Below are positions 49,017 to 59,395 of a stretch of 64,000 nt of DNA, in pieces. Numbering within the stretch: the first letter of the stretch is position 1; every line of letters starts with the position of its first letter. Where the stretch lies: assembly GCA_001603035.1 (NCBI GenBank), contig LVAS01000004.1, positions 1 to 64,000 on the forward strand, written 5' to 3'. Made by a program: the position numbers and the translations under genes. Origin of the DNA: Clostridiales bacterium Firm_13. Lineage in GTDB: Bacteria; Bacillota; Clostridia; Saccharofermentanales; Saccharofermentanaceae. The notes below the pieces were generated by a model. The model was not told where the DNA came from. It saw only the letters and a program-made list of their open reading frames with translations, and ran no database searches.

Positions 49017-51119
49017 ATGATGAAACGAATCCGGATCCCTTTCGATCGACTTATCCTCCTTCTGATTCTTGCAATATTTCTTCTGACTTCGGTCTTGCAA
49101 GTAAGTAAATTCTTCGGTCGCAATGATCTGATCTTTGACCGCCTGTTGAGTAGCGGGAGGACGGCTTCTGTCGAATACTATATCGGCGGTACTGCCGACT
49201 CGCCGGTCAGTACAGTTGCTACGGCCGAGGATACTTCGTTTACGACGGATCGCAAAGCGCTTTCGACACTGGAATCTCCGACCTGGATCCGTATTCGAGT
49301 TCCCGATGTCTCCTCCGATTTGAATCGTGTCGTCTTTGTTCCGCATGAGTTTGTGAAGATGAGCCAGGCTTTTTGCTATTCGGGCGGCAAGTTAACAAGC
49401 CTGATCGTTGAGAATGACCATCTCTATCCGTTTATTCATCTGCCGGCAAGCCGGGATCCCGGCACTTACATTTATATGAAGTTTGATGATCTGGCGTCCC
49501 ACTTCAATTTCTCTGTGCGCACGGACAGGGAAGATGTGTTCATCGGATACCAGCATGTCCTTTTGATGTACAGACTTTCCAATATTGCGATTGTAGCGGT
49601 TATTTTTATCGTTAACCTCGCGTTCTATCGGATGGATCACTATCGGGATCATCTGATTCATTCGATCATGCTGATTTCGACCACGAATATACTATTCCAG
49701 ATCTCGGGTATCCAGAAGCTGCTTGTAGGATTCAACGACGCGGGATACAGCTATATCTGGGGCCTGGTCACGAGCCTCTCCGCGGTGTTTTTCTTGTATA
49801 CGTATTTTGGCGTTGATAAAATGTCCAAATTCCTTCGGTACTCTTTCCGGACGATCATTTTGCTGAATATCGGTCTCCTGATCGCGGTGAATTTGATACG
49901 CAATCTCTCGTTCATCTCCAACGAGTTCTCGGTTCTTCTTCTCGTGATCTGCGCCGCCGGGCTGTTTGTGTCGGCGTATGCGATCCTTCGAATACGAGAG
50001 ATTACCGCTCCGTTCGCGTTCGGGATGCTCTTCCTTTTTCTCGGAACGGGAATCTATGTCCTCGCGACCTTCGGGTATATCTCGTGGAATGACTTTACCG
50101 CGAATGCCATCTTTGCGGCGGCGGCGGTGGAGGCCGTGCTCTTTACGATCGGAATCTTCGGAAAGAGCAAGTTGGAACAGAAGCGGATTCAGGAACTTGA
50201 AACGGAAGTCGCGACAGACCCTCTTACGGGACTTCGCAATCGACTCTATTTCGAGCGAACTGAAATTCCTCACATCGAAGAAGAAGAGAAGGCGGGAACC
50301 CCAACTTCCTTTCTTATGATGGACATTGACCACTTCAAATTGATCAACGATACCTACGGCCATGCAGGCGGCGACAAGGTGCTGCAGGAATTGGCGCAAA
50401 TCCTCCACGAGAATCTCCGCGATCAAGACATCAGCATGCGATGGGGCGGAGAAGAATTCCTGATTACGTTAAGGAATACGAGTCTTCACAAGGCTTCTCT
50501 CACCGCGGAAAAGATTCGCGGCGCCGTCGAAAGTCATAGGTTTGGAGGAATCGGGAAGGTGACCGTCAGTATCGGTATCGCCGAAAAAGTAAAAGGAGAG
50601 TCCTTCGAAGACTGTATTCGGCAGGCGGACGATGCGATGTACCAAGCCAAGAAGCAGGGTCGGAATCGAGTTGCGGTCGCTTTTGAAGGCAATGCGCCGA
50701 TCCGGATTAAGTGGAGTAATCTTCTCGCCTGCGGTAACCCGATTATCGATGCGGAACATCGTGAGTTACTCGCACTGATGAACGCCGCGATTGAGGCTAA
50801 TTTTGAACAGAATGAGAAAGGTCGCTTCCCCGGTGTACTTGAGAAGATTCTTGCCCGATCCGCCGAGCATTTTCAGCATGAGGAGGCGATCCTGCGGGCG
50901 GCAATCTATCCGGAACTCGAAGAGCACTGTCGCATGCACGGGAAGATTCTTGCGGATGCCGAGTCCTTGCGCACCGAAATCATACGCGGTGAGAAGACCC
51001 CCGCCGATGCCGTTGAATTTCTTGTGAATCGGCTTGTGATGGGGCACCTCATCTCCGATGACATTCGCTACTTCTCTTATCTTCACGGAGAAGAGATATC
51101 CTCGAAAGAAGAACAGTGA
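49017..51119 (+). CDS. 7TMR-GGDEF-hemerythrin protein (diguanylate cyclase)
   Basis: A 700-aa membrane signalling protein. TM1 (LILLLILAIFLLTSVLQV) is followed by an extracytoplasmic domain to about residue 175, then a seven-TM block (about 180-395). A GGDEF domain comes next (DPLTGLRNRLYFERTE, RWGGEEFLITL), with the active-site GGEEF form. The C-terminus is a bacteriohemerythrin domain: IIDAEHRELLALMN, HFQHEEAILRAAIYP, HCRMHGKIL and HLISDDIR. All seven usual di-iron ligands seem present. It should make c-di-GMP in response to oxygen or redox state as well as an external ligand. The start is ATG 49017 or 49020. Confidence 0.92.
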   Translation: MMKRIRIPFDRLILLLILAIFLLTSVLQVSKFFGRNDLIFDRLLSSGRTASVEYYIGGTADSPVSTVATAEDTSFTTDRKALSTLESPTWIRIRVPDVSSDLNRVVFVPHEFVKMSQAFCYSGGKLTSLIVENDHLYPFIHLPASRDPGTYIYMKFDDLASHFNFSVRTDREDVFIGYQHVLLMYRLSNIAIVAVIFIVNLAFYRMDHYRDHLIHSIMLISTTNILFQISGIQKLLVGFNDAGYSYIWGLVTSLSAVFFLYTYFGVDKMSKFLRYSFRTIILLNIGLLIAVNLIRNLSFISNEFSVLLLVICAAGLFVSAYAILRIREITAPFAFGMLFLFLGTGIYVLATFGYISWNDFTANAIFAAAAVEAVLFTIGIFGKSKLEQKRIQELETEVATDPLTGLRNRLYFERTEIPHIEEEEKAGTPTSFLMMDIDHFKLINDTYGHAGGDKVLQELAQILHENLRDQDISMRWGGEEFLITLRNTSLHKASLTAEKIRGAVESHRFGGIGKVTVSIGIAEKVKGESFEDCIRQADDAMYQAKKQGRNRVAVAFEGNAPIRIKWSNLLACGNPIIDAEHRELLALMNAAIEANFEQNEKGRFPGVLEKILARSAEHFQHEEAILRAAIYPELEEHCRMHGKILADAESLRTEIIRGEKTPADAVEFLVNRLVMGHLISDDIRYFSYLHGEEISSKEEQ

Positions 51120-54451: not shown

Positions 54452-54694
54452 TTGACAAAAATATTCCCGGATGATAAAAATGAACTAGACTCAAAAAACT
54501 TTTTATGGAAAAGATTACAGTGCGCTTTAAAGAGCACAAAAGAGAACACAATAGAATCTCTTGTTAATGGATTGGCAAAGAACATGCCCGTTGCGGTGTT
54601 TTTTGCGCTAAACGATCGATTGAATAACACTGAAGTCTTTCGTCCAGACGGATCATCCTGGATACAAGATAGCTTTGAGCGGTATTGGGATTGA
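54452..54694 (+). pseudogene. short ORF or gene remnant in the AT-rich insert
   Basis: An 80-codon open frame from a TTG, with no ribosome site and an in-frame TAG just upstream. The sequence looks protein-like (SLVNGLAKNMPVAVFFALND then RLNN; SSWIQDSFERYWD), but I do not recognise it. The TTG coincides with a TTGACA motif, so it may be a promoter rather than a start. It ends exactly where repeat copy 1 begins. More likely the 3' part of a decayed gene than an intact gene. Confidence 0.35.
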
Positions 54695-54869
54695 TGAGCG
54701 AGACAATTATTTTAATAGAACCATGTGCTAAGTATCCGGCCGCATATTTGACTGTTCAACGCTCCAATGGATTGGATGCTTCAGATTGAAACTACGCTTC
54801 AAATATCTATATCGGCGGACATACCTGCCTTCATTCGGATGATGATCTTGCAGGTTCTTAGGTCAATCG
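54689..54869 (+). repeat. 181-bp direct repeat, copy 1
   Basis: The 181 bases from GATTGATGAGCGAGACAATT to CTTAGGTCAATCG recur at 56113-56293 with about nine mismatches and no net indel; the last 125 bases differ at two positions. Each copy starts at a stop codon of the preceding ORF. Copies are 1424 bp apart and bracket the two paralogous genes. An open frame MDWMLQIETTLQISISADIP runs through both copies. Confidence 0.9.
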
Positions 54870-54929
54870 AGGCCCTGATGTTTATTCATTGCTACATTGT
54901 CGTAGTAGATCAACGGGAGGCCATCCACA

Positions 54930-55433
54930 ATGAAAAAGGCGAATAAGCACAAGACAATTTTGATCATAGGTATTGCTTTGGTGCTTTTTTCAGAGGCATT
55001 TGTTGGAGCATTTATCCTATTTACGCAATGGCGAGATGGAAATGCGAAATGGTTGCACATGAAATCTCAAATTGTCCAAGACAACTCGGTGGTTAAAAAC
55101 ATATATCGTATAGACTCCGGATCCCACTGTGACATTATGATCGATTTAAATGCTTATGCAAGCTACGAACAAGTAGACGCAATTCAACATGACATAAATT
55201 CTCAGTTGAAAAACAAAGAAACTTTGCAAGAAATTACGACGTATCACAAAGCACATGCTTCCGGAGATCTCGACAGCATTAAAATCTATATTCTTAATGC
55301 AGGCGATGATGTGTACCTGCTCAGTTATGTTGCATCAAAGAAAGATGATTATGATATGTGGCATTGCGACATTATCGTTGATCATAATAATAACGAAATG
55401 GAAGGTTGTACATCTGATTTCGAACCGAAATAG
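54930..55433 (+). CDS. single-TM secreted-side protein, unknown (paralog 1)
   Basis: A 167-aa protein with a basic N-terminus, one TM helix (TILIIGIALVLFSEAFVGAF then ILF) and an extracytoplasmic domain of about 125 residues. It is a paralog of the next gene, sharing NAKW, QIVxxNSxVKNxYR, TYHxxHASG and ASKKD. No family recognised and no catalytic motif. The start is ATG after GGGAGGCCATCCACA. AT-richer than the surrounding genes, which suggests acquisition by transfer. Confidence 0.75.
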   Translation: MKKANKHKTILIIGIALVLFSEAFVGAFILFTQWRDGNAKWLHMKSQIVQDNSVVKNIYRIDSGSHCDIMIDLNAYASYEQVDAIQHDINSQLKNKETLQEITTYHKAHASGDLDSIKIYILNAGDDVYLLSYVASKKDDYDMWHCDIIVDHNNNEMEGCTSDFEPK

Positions 55434-55605
55434 GCAGGTCAAATCCCGCGACTCTTATCTTAACGGAGCAACGTTATTCCAGACAAACTACCTAGCATGA
55501 ACATCAGAAAAGTGCCCAGTATCGCCATCTGTTTTCTTATTTTTCGACCGAGGCTCTTATGTCTTTGCTACATCGTTGAAGCAGATAAGCGGGAGATCGT
55601 CCTAA

Positions 55606-56118
55606 ATGAAAATGACGAAAAAGCACAAGATAATATTGATCAATTGTATTGCAATGGCACTTGTTTCCGGAGCCTTTGTCGGAGCGTTCCTTCTTTTTAA
55701 TAATTGGAGAAATGAGAATGCGAAATGGTTTGCCTTGAAAGAACAAATTGTTGAGGAGAATTCGCTGGTTAAAAATGTATATCGAAGAGATATGGGCCCT
55801 GCCTGTCACATTATGATTGTATTGAATTCTTCTGCAAACTTTGATCAAATCGAAGCAATCTATAAAAGTGTACTAACGCATTTATGCGATGAAGAAACAC
55901 GTAAAGAACTCATAACGTATCACAACGGACACGCTTCCGGAGAGCTTGCTTTTTTGGAGATTGATTTCCGAGATTCAGAAGATAAAACATTGCTATATGG
56001 ATTTATTGCATCTAAAAAAGATGGATTTGAAGAATGGTATGTTGATGACGCAATCGACCCAGACAGCCAACATCTGAAGTACAACATGTCAGATTACACA
56101 ACGACAAACGATGATTGA
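55606..56118 (+). CDS. single-TM secreted-side protein, unknown (paralog 2)
   Basis: A 170-aa protein, tandem paralog of the preceding gene: basic N-terminus, one TM helix (IILINCIAMALVSGAFVGAF then LLF) and an external domain ending in an acidic tail. Roughly half of the residues match paralog 1. Even the upstream leader is related (GCTACAT...CGGGAG), so gene and leader were duplicated together. GCGGGAG precedes ATG 55606; a second ATG two codons later is also possible. Its stop codon lies in the start of repeat copy 2. Function unknown. Confidence 0.75.
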   Translation: MKMTKKHKIILINCIAMALVSGAFVGAFLLFNNWRNENAKWFALKEQIVEENSLVKNVYRRDMGPACHIMIVLNSSANFDQIEAIYKSVLTHLCDEETRKELITYHNGHASGELAFLEIDFRDSEDKTLLYGFIASKKDGFEEWYVDDAIDPDSQHLKYNMSDYTTTNDD

Positions 56119-56293
56119 TGATCGAGACAATTATGTAATAAGAACCATATGCTAAGTATCCGGCTGCATATTTGACTGTTCAACGCTCCAATGGATTGGA
56201 TGCTTCAGATTGAAACGACGCTTCAAATATCTATATCGGCGGACATACCTGCCTTCATTCGGATGATGATCTTGCAGGTTCTTGGGTCAATCG
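56113..56293 (+). repeat. 181-bp direct repeat, copy 2
   Basis: Second copy of the repeat at 54689-54869, about 95 percent identical by eye. Downstream sequence diverges at once from that after copy 1. It leads into a 126-base stretch with no supported gene before the helicase start. Confidence 0.9.
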
Positions 56294-56419
56294 GCGAGCG
56301 GTTTTGTGCCATTCGCACGGTATCGTTTTCGTTGCAAATGCTGGGTGATCGTTTTAGTATGTTAACAATGTTTCTTGACGTTGCATTGCAAGACTCGATC
56401 CGGGCTGGGGGGGATTATC

Positions 56420-59137
56420 GTGCGAGTACTTTCTGATTTGCGATTTCGGGGTGAGTTCCGCGATTACCAAAGCGAAGTTCTCAATTCGACCGATCAATAT
56501 CTGAAGGATGGGAAGCTCCATATTGTCGCCGCGCCCGGCAGCGGGAAAACAACGCTGGGAATGGAGTTGATTTGTCGGGTGAATCGGCCGGCGCTCATCC
56601 TCTCGCCGACGGTCACGATCCGGCAGCAATGGGGCGAACGGTTTGCGGAGAGTTTCCTGCCGATTGGCGAAGATGCCTCGGACTATGTCTCGTTCGATCT
56701 GCACCGACCCTCGCAGATTACGACAATTACCTATCAAGCGCTTTACGCCGCCTGTAACCGGATATCCGTGAAGGAAGAGTCGGACGACGAAGAGGGCGAG
56801 AGCGGAACCGTGATTGATTTCCGGGATTTTGACTTGCTGCGTGTTATCCGTGAGGCCGGTATCGGCACGATTTGTCTTGATGAGGCGCATCACCTCAAGA
56901 ATGAATGGCACAAGGCGCTCTCCGCCTTTCTTTCCGCGCTCGGGAGAGATGCGACGCTGATCTCACTGACCGCGACGCCCCCTTACGACAGCACTCCCGG
57001 CGAATGGGAGAAATACATCGGCTTATGCGGCGAAATCGATGCGGAGATCTATGTGCCTCAGCTTGTCGCGCAAAAGTCGCTCTGTCCGCACCAGGATTAT
57101 GTGTATTTCAATTACCCGACGGCGGAAGAGAAAGAAATATTCAACCAATATAAGCAAAAGGCGCTGACCTGCACCGAAACGGTTCTTCTGAGTCCACTCT
57201 TTGACGAGCTTCTGGCGAGTTCTGGGTTGCTGACCGATTTTCGCGCAAAAGAGGAGTGCATTCTCGAGAATGCCAAAGGCTTTATCGCGATTCTCTGTAT
57301 GGCGAAACATCGCTCGATTCCGTTGCCCAAGGCCCTGATCCGATTGCTCTCTCCGCGCGGGCGACTTCCGGCGTTCTCGCTTGCCTTTGCGGAAACGGCG
57401 TTTCAGTTTGTGATCGATTCTCCGGACATTTTTTCGGAACGTGTTTCGACCCGCCTGCACACCGTTCTTTCCGAGAACGGGGTGATTGAAGAACGGAAGG
57501 TATGTCTGCAATCGACCGCGAAGCTCAACCGTCTTCTTCTTTCTTCGACGGGAAAAGCGATCGGAATCAACGAGATCGTCCGGAGTGAATCGAGTAACCT
57601 CGGGAAAGATCTTAGAATGCTGATTCTGACCGATTACGTCCGGAAAAATGCGATGAAGACAATCGGAGGGGACGAGCCCATCGCCGTGATGGGCGCCGTG
57701 CCGATCTTCGAATCGGTGAGGAGAAGCTGCGGAAATCAGGTCCGCCTCGCACTTCTTACAGGGCAGGTCGCTCTTATTCCCAAAGACATATTTGGCGGAA
57801 TCCTTGCAATCGCCGAAAAGCAAGGGGTAACCGTTCGCGAACGGGAACTCCCGAACACGGACTGTCTCGAAATTGTTTTCGGCGGCACCGGCAAGAGCCG
57901 AGTCGCCGTCATAACGGAGGCGTTCGGCTGCGGACTCATCCAGGTTCTTGTCGGCACGAAGTCCCTGCTCGGAGAGGGATGGGATTCGCCTTGCATCAAT
58001 TCACTTATCCTTGCGAGCTTTGTCGGAAGCTTTGTACTTTCCAATCAGATGCGAGGCCGCGCCATCCGCACGGATGTGAATACACCGGGAAAGGTGGCCA
58101 ATATCTGGCATCTGGTTACGGTGGAGCCTCCCTTTGTCTCGGACAATCCGATTCTGGAAACCCTGGCAAAGCCGATGCTCGAGGACAAAGAATCGATTCC
58201 GAGTGAGGATTTTCAGACGCTACAGCGACGATTCGAGTGCTTTCTTGCGCCCTCCTATTCCGGCAATCGGATCGAGAACGGAATCGAACGGTTGGATATC
58301 ATCCGGCCGCCCTATAACGAAAAAGGGTTCCGGCATATCAACGAACAGATGCTTCGAATGGCGGCGGACAGAGCGTCCGTGGCTGCGCGCTGGAACGGGA
58401 CGGTGGGAAGGATGGAAGTACTCGAAGCAGACGAGGTACCGAAGACGGTTGTTCCCCGAGGGTTTCTGTTCGTCAACGCATTTCTTATACTGATCGTATC
58501 GATTCTTTTCTACGGTTTTACACAAGTGTTTTCGCGTTCGATCACGACCGTGGGACTAAAGTCCCCAACTTTCGCGAGTTTTGCCATTACACTTCTCGTC
58601 CTCCTTTTTTGCGCTTATTTGTTCTGCTGGGGACTCGTCAAAATCGTGAGGTATATCTCACCGCGAAAGACCATAGAAGAACTCGGAAAATGCGTGTTCC
58701 TTACACTGAAAGACATGAGCGAGATCGAGAGCCGAGATGCGAGGGTCGAGGTTTCATCAGACAATCTGAGAACCTCCGTCTACTGCTGCCTGGCAAATGC
58801 GACCCTGCATGAGAAATATGTGTTTGCGGAGGCGGTCCGAGAATTGCTATCCGGGATAGCCAATCCCCGGTACGTCCTGGTGAAACGGTACCGGATCCTG
58901 TTCCTTCCCGTTCTTTCCTATTCCCACAGCTATGCCTGTCCGTCGGTCATCTCACGCAAAAAGGAGAATGCGGAGATTCTCGCGCAGTATCTCAGTAAAA
59001 GTGCGGGAGGATTTTCTCTTGTCTATACACGGAGCGAAGTGGGAAGGAGGGCGCTGCTCAAGTGCCGCAAACGATCTTATATGAATTTGAACGAATCGAT
59101 GACAAAGAGAAAGAAGATGACGAATTCTTGGGAGTAG
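56420..59137 (+). CDS. SF2 DEAH-type helicase with C-terminal transmembrane helices
   Basis: A 905-aa protein. The N-terminal RecA-like domain has a Q-like RDYQSEVLN, Walker A VAAPGSGKTTLG (about residue 39), DEAH box TICLDEAHHLKNEW (about 154) and motif III LTATPPYDS. A long helical insertion follows. The second RecA domain has LVGTKSLLGEGWDSPCINSL and QMRGRAIRTD (motif VI). Two TM helices follow (about 683-702 and 720-745), then a C-terminal domain of about 150 residues. GTG 56420 after CTGGGGGGGAT is the start. Helicases with TM anchors are rare, so the role is unclear; a defence or nucleic-acid uptake function is speculation. Base composition matches the chromosome rather than the AT-rich insert. 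Confidence 0.85.
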   Translation: MRVLSDLRFRGEFRDYQSEVLNSTDQYLKDGKLHIVAAPGSGKTTLGMELICRVNRPALILSPTVTIRQQWGERFAESFLPIGEDASDYVSFDLHRPSQITTITYQALYAACNRISVKEESDDEEGESGTVIDFRDFDLLRVIREAGIGTICLDEAHHLKNEWHKALSAFLSALGRDATLISLTATPPYDSTPGEWEKYIGLCGEIDAEIYVPQLVAQKSLCPHQDYVYFNYPTAEEKEIFNQYKQKALTCTETVLLSPLFDELLASSGLLTDFRAKEECILENAKGFIAILCMAKHRSIPLPKALIRLLSPRGRLPAFSLAFAETAFQFVIDSPDIFSERVSTRLHTVLSENGVIEERKVCLQSTAKLNRLLLSSTGKAIGINEIVRSESSNLGKDLRMLILTDYVRKNAMKTIGGDEPIAVMGAVPIFESVRRSCGNQVRLALLTGQVALIPKDIFGGILAIAEKQGVTVRERELPNTDCLEIVFGGTGKSRVAVITEAFGCGLIQVLVGTKSLLGEGWDSPCINSLILASFVGSFVLSNQMRGRAIRTDVNTPGKVANIWHLVTVEPPFVSDNPILETLAKPMLEDKESIPSEDFQTLQRRFECFLAPSYSGNRIENGIERLDIIRPPYNEKGFRHINEQMLRMAADRASVAARWNGTVGRMEVLEADEVPKTVVPRGFLFVNAFLILIVSILFYGFTQVFSRSITTVGLKSPTFASFAITLLVLLFCAYLFCWGLVKIVRYISPRKTIEELGKCVFLTLKDMSEIESRDARVEVSSDNLRTSVYCCLANATLHEKYVFAEAVRELLSGIANPRYVLVKRYRILFLPVLSYSHSYACPSVISRKKENAEILAQYLSKSAGGFSLVYTRSEVGRRALLKCRKRSYMNLNESMTKRKKMTNSWE

Positions 59138-59304: not shown

Positions 59305-59395
59305 TGGCGGAGAAGGAGGGATTCGAACCCTCGTGCCAGTTGCCCGGCAAACGCATTTCGAGTGCGCCCCGTTATGACCACTTCGATACTTCTCC
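59305..59395 (-). tRNA. tRNA-Ser (anticodon CGA)
   Basis: On the minus strand GGAGAAG pairs with CTTCTCC as the acceptor stem, with discriminator G and an encoded CCA. The T-arm reads GAGGGTTCGAATCCCTC. The anticodon loop CTCGAAA on a GCGCA/TGCGT stem gives CGA, decoding UCG. A long variable arm (GCCGGGCAACTGGC region) is typical of serine tRNAs. Its own promoter and terminator flank it. Confidence 0.97.

Follow-up and report, generated by a model that had tools for sequence, protein, structure and literature searches.

A patchily distributed DEAH-type helicase with a predicted membrane hairpin and an unmatched C-terminal domain

The window, by which we mean the whole 64,000-nucleotide stretch of DNA analyzed here, carries a gene whose product, judged from its motifs, is an SF2 DEAH-type helicase or translocase with predicted ATPase and nucleic-acid activity. 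A hydrophobic hairpin and a C-terminal alpha/beta domain follow the helicase core, an architecture that is confirmed here and that none of the libraries searched describes. No description of the family was found in the open-access papers searched. Some bacteria may use the family against incoming foreign DNA, but most members do not lie beside known defence genes. The gene, its parts and its neighbours in the window are as follows.

54689-54869 and 56113-56293, direct repeats of 181 nt each, 95% identical, bracketing an AT-rich insert
56420..59137, plus strand, helicase gene with GTG start, 905 aa (alternative TTG at 56375, 920 aa)
56420..57115, plus strand, first SF2 helicase domain (aa 1-~232), holding APGSGKT (motif I), DEAHH and TATPP
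57116..57613, plus strand, largely helical segment inserted between the RecA-like domains, aa ~233-398, from AlphaFold secondary structure
57614..58195, plus strand, second SF2 helicase domain (aa ~399-592), holding motif V as GEGWD and motif VI as QMRGRAIR
58457..58549, plus strand, hydrophobic helix 1, predicted to span the membrane, aa 680-710, from hydropathy, AlphaFold and homologues
58571..58651, plus strand, hydrophobic helix 2, predicted to span the membrane, aa 718-744, sharing residues with the basic stretch KIVRYISPRK
58649..59134, plus strand, C-terminal alpha/beta domain, aa 744-905, unmatched in Pfam, PHROGs, PDB and viral structures
59305..59395, minus strand, tRNA-Ser(CGA), first gene of a conserved block, its 3' end facing the helicase gene

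The open reading frame was confirmed at 56420-59137 on the plus strand, ending with a stop codon at 59137. Since the N-termini of homologues line up near the GTG at 56420 in sequence alignments, this codon is a reasonable start. Inspection of the 905-residue protein reveals SF2 motifs I, II, III, V and VI intact and in order (APGSGKT at 38-44, DEAHH at 154-158, TATPP at 184-188, GEGWD at 518-522 and QMRGRAIR at 543-550), as a sequence-only reading of this DNA had claimed for motifs I, II, III and VI, and most of these motifs are invariant across 19 homologues. Pfam matches to the protein comprise ResIII (7e-16), DEAD (7e-7) and a weak Helicase_C. The gene has a GC content of 53% and a GC3 of 62%, where the window as a whole has 51% GC.

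Both hydrophobic helices proposed in that earlier reading are borne out. Hydropathy calculated in 19-residue windows peaks at 2.47 and 2.45, and shuffling the protein 5000 times yields two such non-overlapping windows in 13 cases. The full-length AlphaFold model (mean pLDDT 79.9) places helices at residues 680-710 (31 residues) and 718-744 (27 residues). At least one hydropathy window of 1.8 or higher is present in the hairpin region of 28 of the 29 proteins measured, and homologues of the transmembrane (TM) type retain the hydrophobicity of the segment with hardly any conservation of its sequence. Some Bacilli members and a long branch of the family have mainly one strong hydrophobic segment. 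Basic residues flank the hairpin on both sides (VPR before, KIVRYISPRK after), a charge pattern which suggests that both ends lie inside the cell. The two-helix hairpin probably tethers the helicase to the bacterial inner membrane, where we infer both its insertion and its topology.

We consider it quite unlikely that the same segments form a buried helical hairpin or an amphipathic surface within a soluble helicase that is regulated through its C-terminal domain. Such a protein would be consistent with the Rhodobacterales homologues, in which the C-terminal domain is present and the hydrophobic segment is absent, and with homologue L105, in which hydropathy in the hairpin region is weak. It is difficult to reconcile with peaks of ~2.4 in two helices of 27-31 residues, with the basic flanks, and with a hydrophobicity that is kept despite high sequence turnover. 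The earlier reading had named homologues without the helices as evidence that would count against its defence idea; this describes the Rhodobacterales proteins, whereas nearly all TM-type homologues keep at least one strong segment. Hydrophobic helices of bilayer-spanning length, as expected of an integral membrane protein, are conserved in homologues other than those of Rhodobacterales.

The C-terminal domain, previously described only as unrecognized, proves to have a confidently predicted fold and no counterpart in the collections compared. Predicted alone, its ~160 residues give a pLDDT of 84.9 and a pTM of 0.80, with secondary-structure elements ordered H-EE-H-EE-H-E-H-H in the predicted structure. 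Foldseek returned no match for it in the PDB (best E 0.43) or among the viral structures of BFVD, PHROGs returned none, and no Pfam match to the C-terminal third rose above the curated cut-off (best 0.087). On the strength of this model, the domain would represent a new fold. A profile of the domain found 20 matches among 381 genomes, every one of them within an ORF of 833-1028 aa, and each of the seven newly found long-branch ORFs that we opened (7/7) carries helicase motifs. As the matches always lie in ORFs of this length and those opened are helicases, the domain seems to be confined to this one helicase family in the genomes searched. In the DECH branch of the family the simple motif-VI pattern was unmatched, and one of the seven opened members is truncated at a contig end. 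The domain probably recognizes a partner or a substrate.

Comparison with known systems places the core among DNA translocases, where the solved relatives found by profile and fold are XPB, Hef, FANCM and others. XPB/RAD25 (XPBII and TFIIH XPB) shares the SF2 core and provides the best profile and phmmer matches in the PDB. The sequence match, however, spans only ~100 N-terminal residues, and XPB lacks both the membrane hairpin and the C-terminal domain. NCBIfam yields only weak XPB/UvrB-type matches, with the XPB model NF045503 scoring 31.4 against a cut-off of 610. Fold matches of the predicted model are to Hef, XPB and FANCM, the best being the translocase domain of Hef/FANCM (1wp9, E 2.5e-12; TM-score 0.46 by target). 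Hef carries a helical insertion between its RecA domains, as does the model here; in contrast to Hef/FANCM, the present family has no nuclease domain and its C-terminus differs. A ResIII-type ATPase core is likewise shared with type I/III restriction translocases and with PbeA, with weak matches to PbeA (PADLOC), Cas3 and REase_I, whereas no nuclease, methylase or specificity subunit and no pbeBCD partners were seen. PADLOC-DB 2023 holds no full-length match to a defence helicase, the best being a weak PbeA match (E 7e-4) limited to RecA2. A full-length homologue from Paenibacillus, WP_152404286.1, at 32% identity, bears only the generic NCBI name 'DEAD/DEAH box helicase family protein'. To our knowledge, the helicases that bacteria use in immunity and repair are as a rule soluble proteins or components of soluble complexes.

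ComFA, too, is a membrane-associated SF2 helicase, which would speak for a ComFA-like motor of DNA uptake. We regard such a motor as very improbable. No competence genes were noticed in the neighbourhoods read, no ComFA model was matched where NCBIfam gave only its weak XPB/UvrB-type hits, and the gene is patchy within probable Streptococcus, a generally competent genus.

Full-length homologues at 32-45% identity are scattered across Bacillota. In the window's class, 13 of 391 genomes have one, counting the window's own and two with only a distant homologue. They also occur in 14 of 301 genomes of a second class, in 15 of 78 species of a single genus, probably Streptococcus, and in 2 of 399 genomes of a phylum-wide draw, again counting the window's own. 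Within two families the gene is present in 1/16 and 6/32 genomes, and further homologues were found in one Oscillospiraceae MAG and on one Paenibacillus plasmid. Such patchy occurrence within families and genera points to an accessory gene, a character that the distribution supports. Two homologues, L119 (G1196) and L029 (G065), look broken, one split into two ORFs and one with an internal stop; gene calls were made by simple longest-ORF picking.

The immediate surroundings in the window are as the sequence-only reading had them, with a repeat-bracketed AT-rich insert on one side and tRNA-Ser(CGA) on the other. The block formed by tRNA-Ser(CGA), an acetyltransferase and a Xaa-Pro aminopeptidase is kept in relatives without the helicase gene, and the side of the tRNA that faces away from this block has variable content among relatives; in a same-genus relative the contig ends just past the tRNA. 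The suggestion of a hot spot for accessory or defence loci thus holds in its accessory half, given the patchy occurrence and the block kept without the gene, and is weakened in its defence half, as no defence genes were recognized among the ORFs read around the helicase gene. A defence island at this gene was accordingly rejected, PADLOC giving only weak RecA-domain matches on the protein itself. We also rejected a mobile element at the tRNA, as no integrase was noticed and the 3' end of the tRNA is not duplicated anywhere in the window at up to 3 mismatches. The AT-rich insert (54689-56293) has 39% GC, so that the helicase gene, at 53%, was rejected as a part of it. The insert holds a tandem pair of paralogous genes for small membrane proteins (54930-55433 and 55606-56118, ~72% alike in DNA), the first without a Pfam match. 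Farther off, at 49017-51119, lies a membrane protein that by eye has a GGDEF-like domain and then a hemerythrin-like C-terminus.

Across the TM-type family, defence genes are found in one of ~19 distinct contexts, a raw tally counted by eye. This one context belongs to a single probable-Streptococcus clade, where the helicase gene adjoins a VTT-domain gene at one shared site in 11 genomes. In most of these it is followed by genes for type I restriction-modification (R-M), AbiH, RhuM, PrrC, Tmn-like, Ppl-like or EcoRI-type methylase proteins, with E values of 5e-164 for HsdR, 7e-115 for PrrC, 2e-28 for AbiH, 2.5e-45 for the Tmn-like and 3e-38 for the Ppl-like match. At this site, relatives lacking the helicase have genes for type I R-M or AbiH, or toxin-antitoxin-like ones; among 12 with the same flank, 10 have R-M or similar cargo and two have ABC-transporter-type genes. 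In this clade the helicase gene forms the first cargo of a defence hotspot, and it is present in some genomes only. Helicase identity is ~70% between subclades and 86-97% within them, while the flanking gene, at 92% and 99%, diverges more slowly. Across the loci of this VTT-adjacent hotspot (L102-L119 and L122-L133), the type I R-M, AbiH, PrrC, RhuM, Tmn-like, Ppl-like and toxin-antitoxin-like cargo is interchangeable. A Streptococcus suis study (PMC5398294) reports a variable defence site with unnamed genes that carry helicase domains; these could, but need not, be members of the present family.

The remaining ~18 contexts present the helicase gene alone among ordinary, unrelated genes. A PADLOC scan of 118 neighbours at 18 such loci gave no convincing defence match and no restriction, Cas or Abi model, with a few generic matches at 1e-10 to ATPase-, radical-SAM- and regulator-type models. 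Pfam counts over the same 118 neighbours reveal no recurrent partner, and a conserved partner gene was rejected. Two adjacent EamA-like genes (L022, L033) are probably coincidental, as are two NUDIX neighbours. The earlier proposal of a defence role, to be judged by a survey of homologue neighbourhoods, is partly supported, by one clade's hotspot, and is weakened by the ~18 other contexts. Homologues confined to housekeeping neighbourhoods had been named as evidence against that proposal, and this is what we observe for a part of the family: members of the distant DECH branch lie beside pgk-tpi-gpmI in four genomes and beside rho-rpmE in two. Proteins of this sister branch (L169, L173; L037, L170-L172) are ~1000 aa long, share the C-terminal domain and have a hydrophobic segment rich in glycine and alanine.

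These neighbourhoods bear on a membrane-tethered helicase with a cell-intrinsic role, whether in DNA repair, in chromosome- or transcription-linked work or in the handling of DNA during uptake or conjugation, which some lineages would have kept and for which the hotspot position in one clade would be incidental. We hold this to be a real possibility, somewhat less likely than not. The ordinary genes of most neighbourhoods, the fixed position of the DECH branch beside core genes, and the repair and transcription helicases that are the closest solved relatives all speak for it. Most relatives, even members of one genus or family, lack the gene, and the TM-type family has no conserved operon partner, both of which speak against it.

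The reading that we favour is a membrane-tethered translocase that acts on incoming DNA, on the grounds that the gene is an accessory one, stands alone and belongs in one lineage to the cargo of a defence hotspot. In full, it describes a membrane-held XPB/Hef-like SF2 ATPase, encoded by an accessory single gene and bearing a new-fold C-terminal domain, which acts against incoming DNA; as a whole we would place it slightly short of an even chance. The motor would be the SF2 ATPase, a probable nucleic-acid translocase, anchored by the two-helix hairpin at the inner membrane, on its cytoplasmic side, with the cytoplasmic C-terminal domain probably recognizing a partner or substrate. The protein would engage DNA at the membrane or just across it, and ATP-driven translocation would displace, unwind or block that DNA, limiting phages or other incoming DNA. 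We infer DNA as the substrate, the membrane as the site of action and the anti-invader role, which is the leading idea for the family, unproven and tentatively held. Against defence, the hotspot is a single context, the core-gene synteny of the sister DECH branch points the other way, neither a nuclease domain nor a conserved partner was found, and the gene's composition is native to the window genome. A narrower version, in which the protein alone confers immunity by meeting injected DNA at its entry, with the new-fold domain as sensor and no nuclease, we regard as unlikely. If the family does hold a DNA translocase at the inner membrane through its own hairpin, together with a domain that has no known fold relative, the processing or blocking of DNA at its entry point would become directly testable. 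The small size of the C-terminal domain suits it to structural work, and since some relatives belong to a genus that has tractable laboratory strains, the system can be tested.

A phage origin of the family was rejected. Two matches labelled 'Bacteriophage sp.' are unverified gut scaffolds, one of them with ordinary bacterial genes, and an IMG/VR scan gave, among the matches listed, only partial helicase matches. One such record (L025, MT836806.1) carries an amino-acid ABC transporter and an apparent pyruvate formate-lyase, and is probably a bacterial fragment.

The plasmid-borne helicase relatives of Rhodobacterales have their start overlapped by a small gene, a possible partner, and DUF4178-type genes are found close by. 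The small upstream genes at two of these loci (L026:9540-12310 and L023:8486-10158) are 60% identical to each other, and the small upstream gene of Tritonibacter shows a weak Halogen_Hydrol match and an amphipathic-looking N-terminus.
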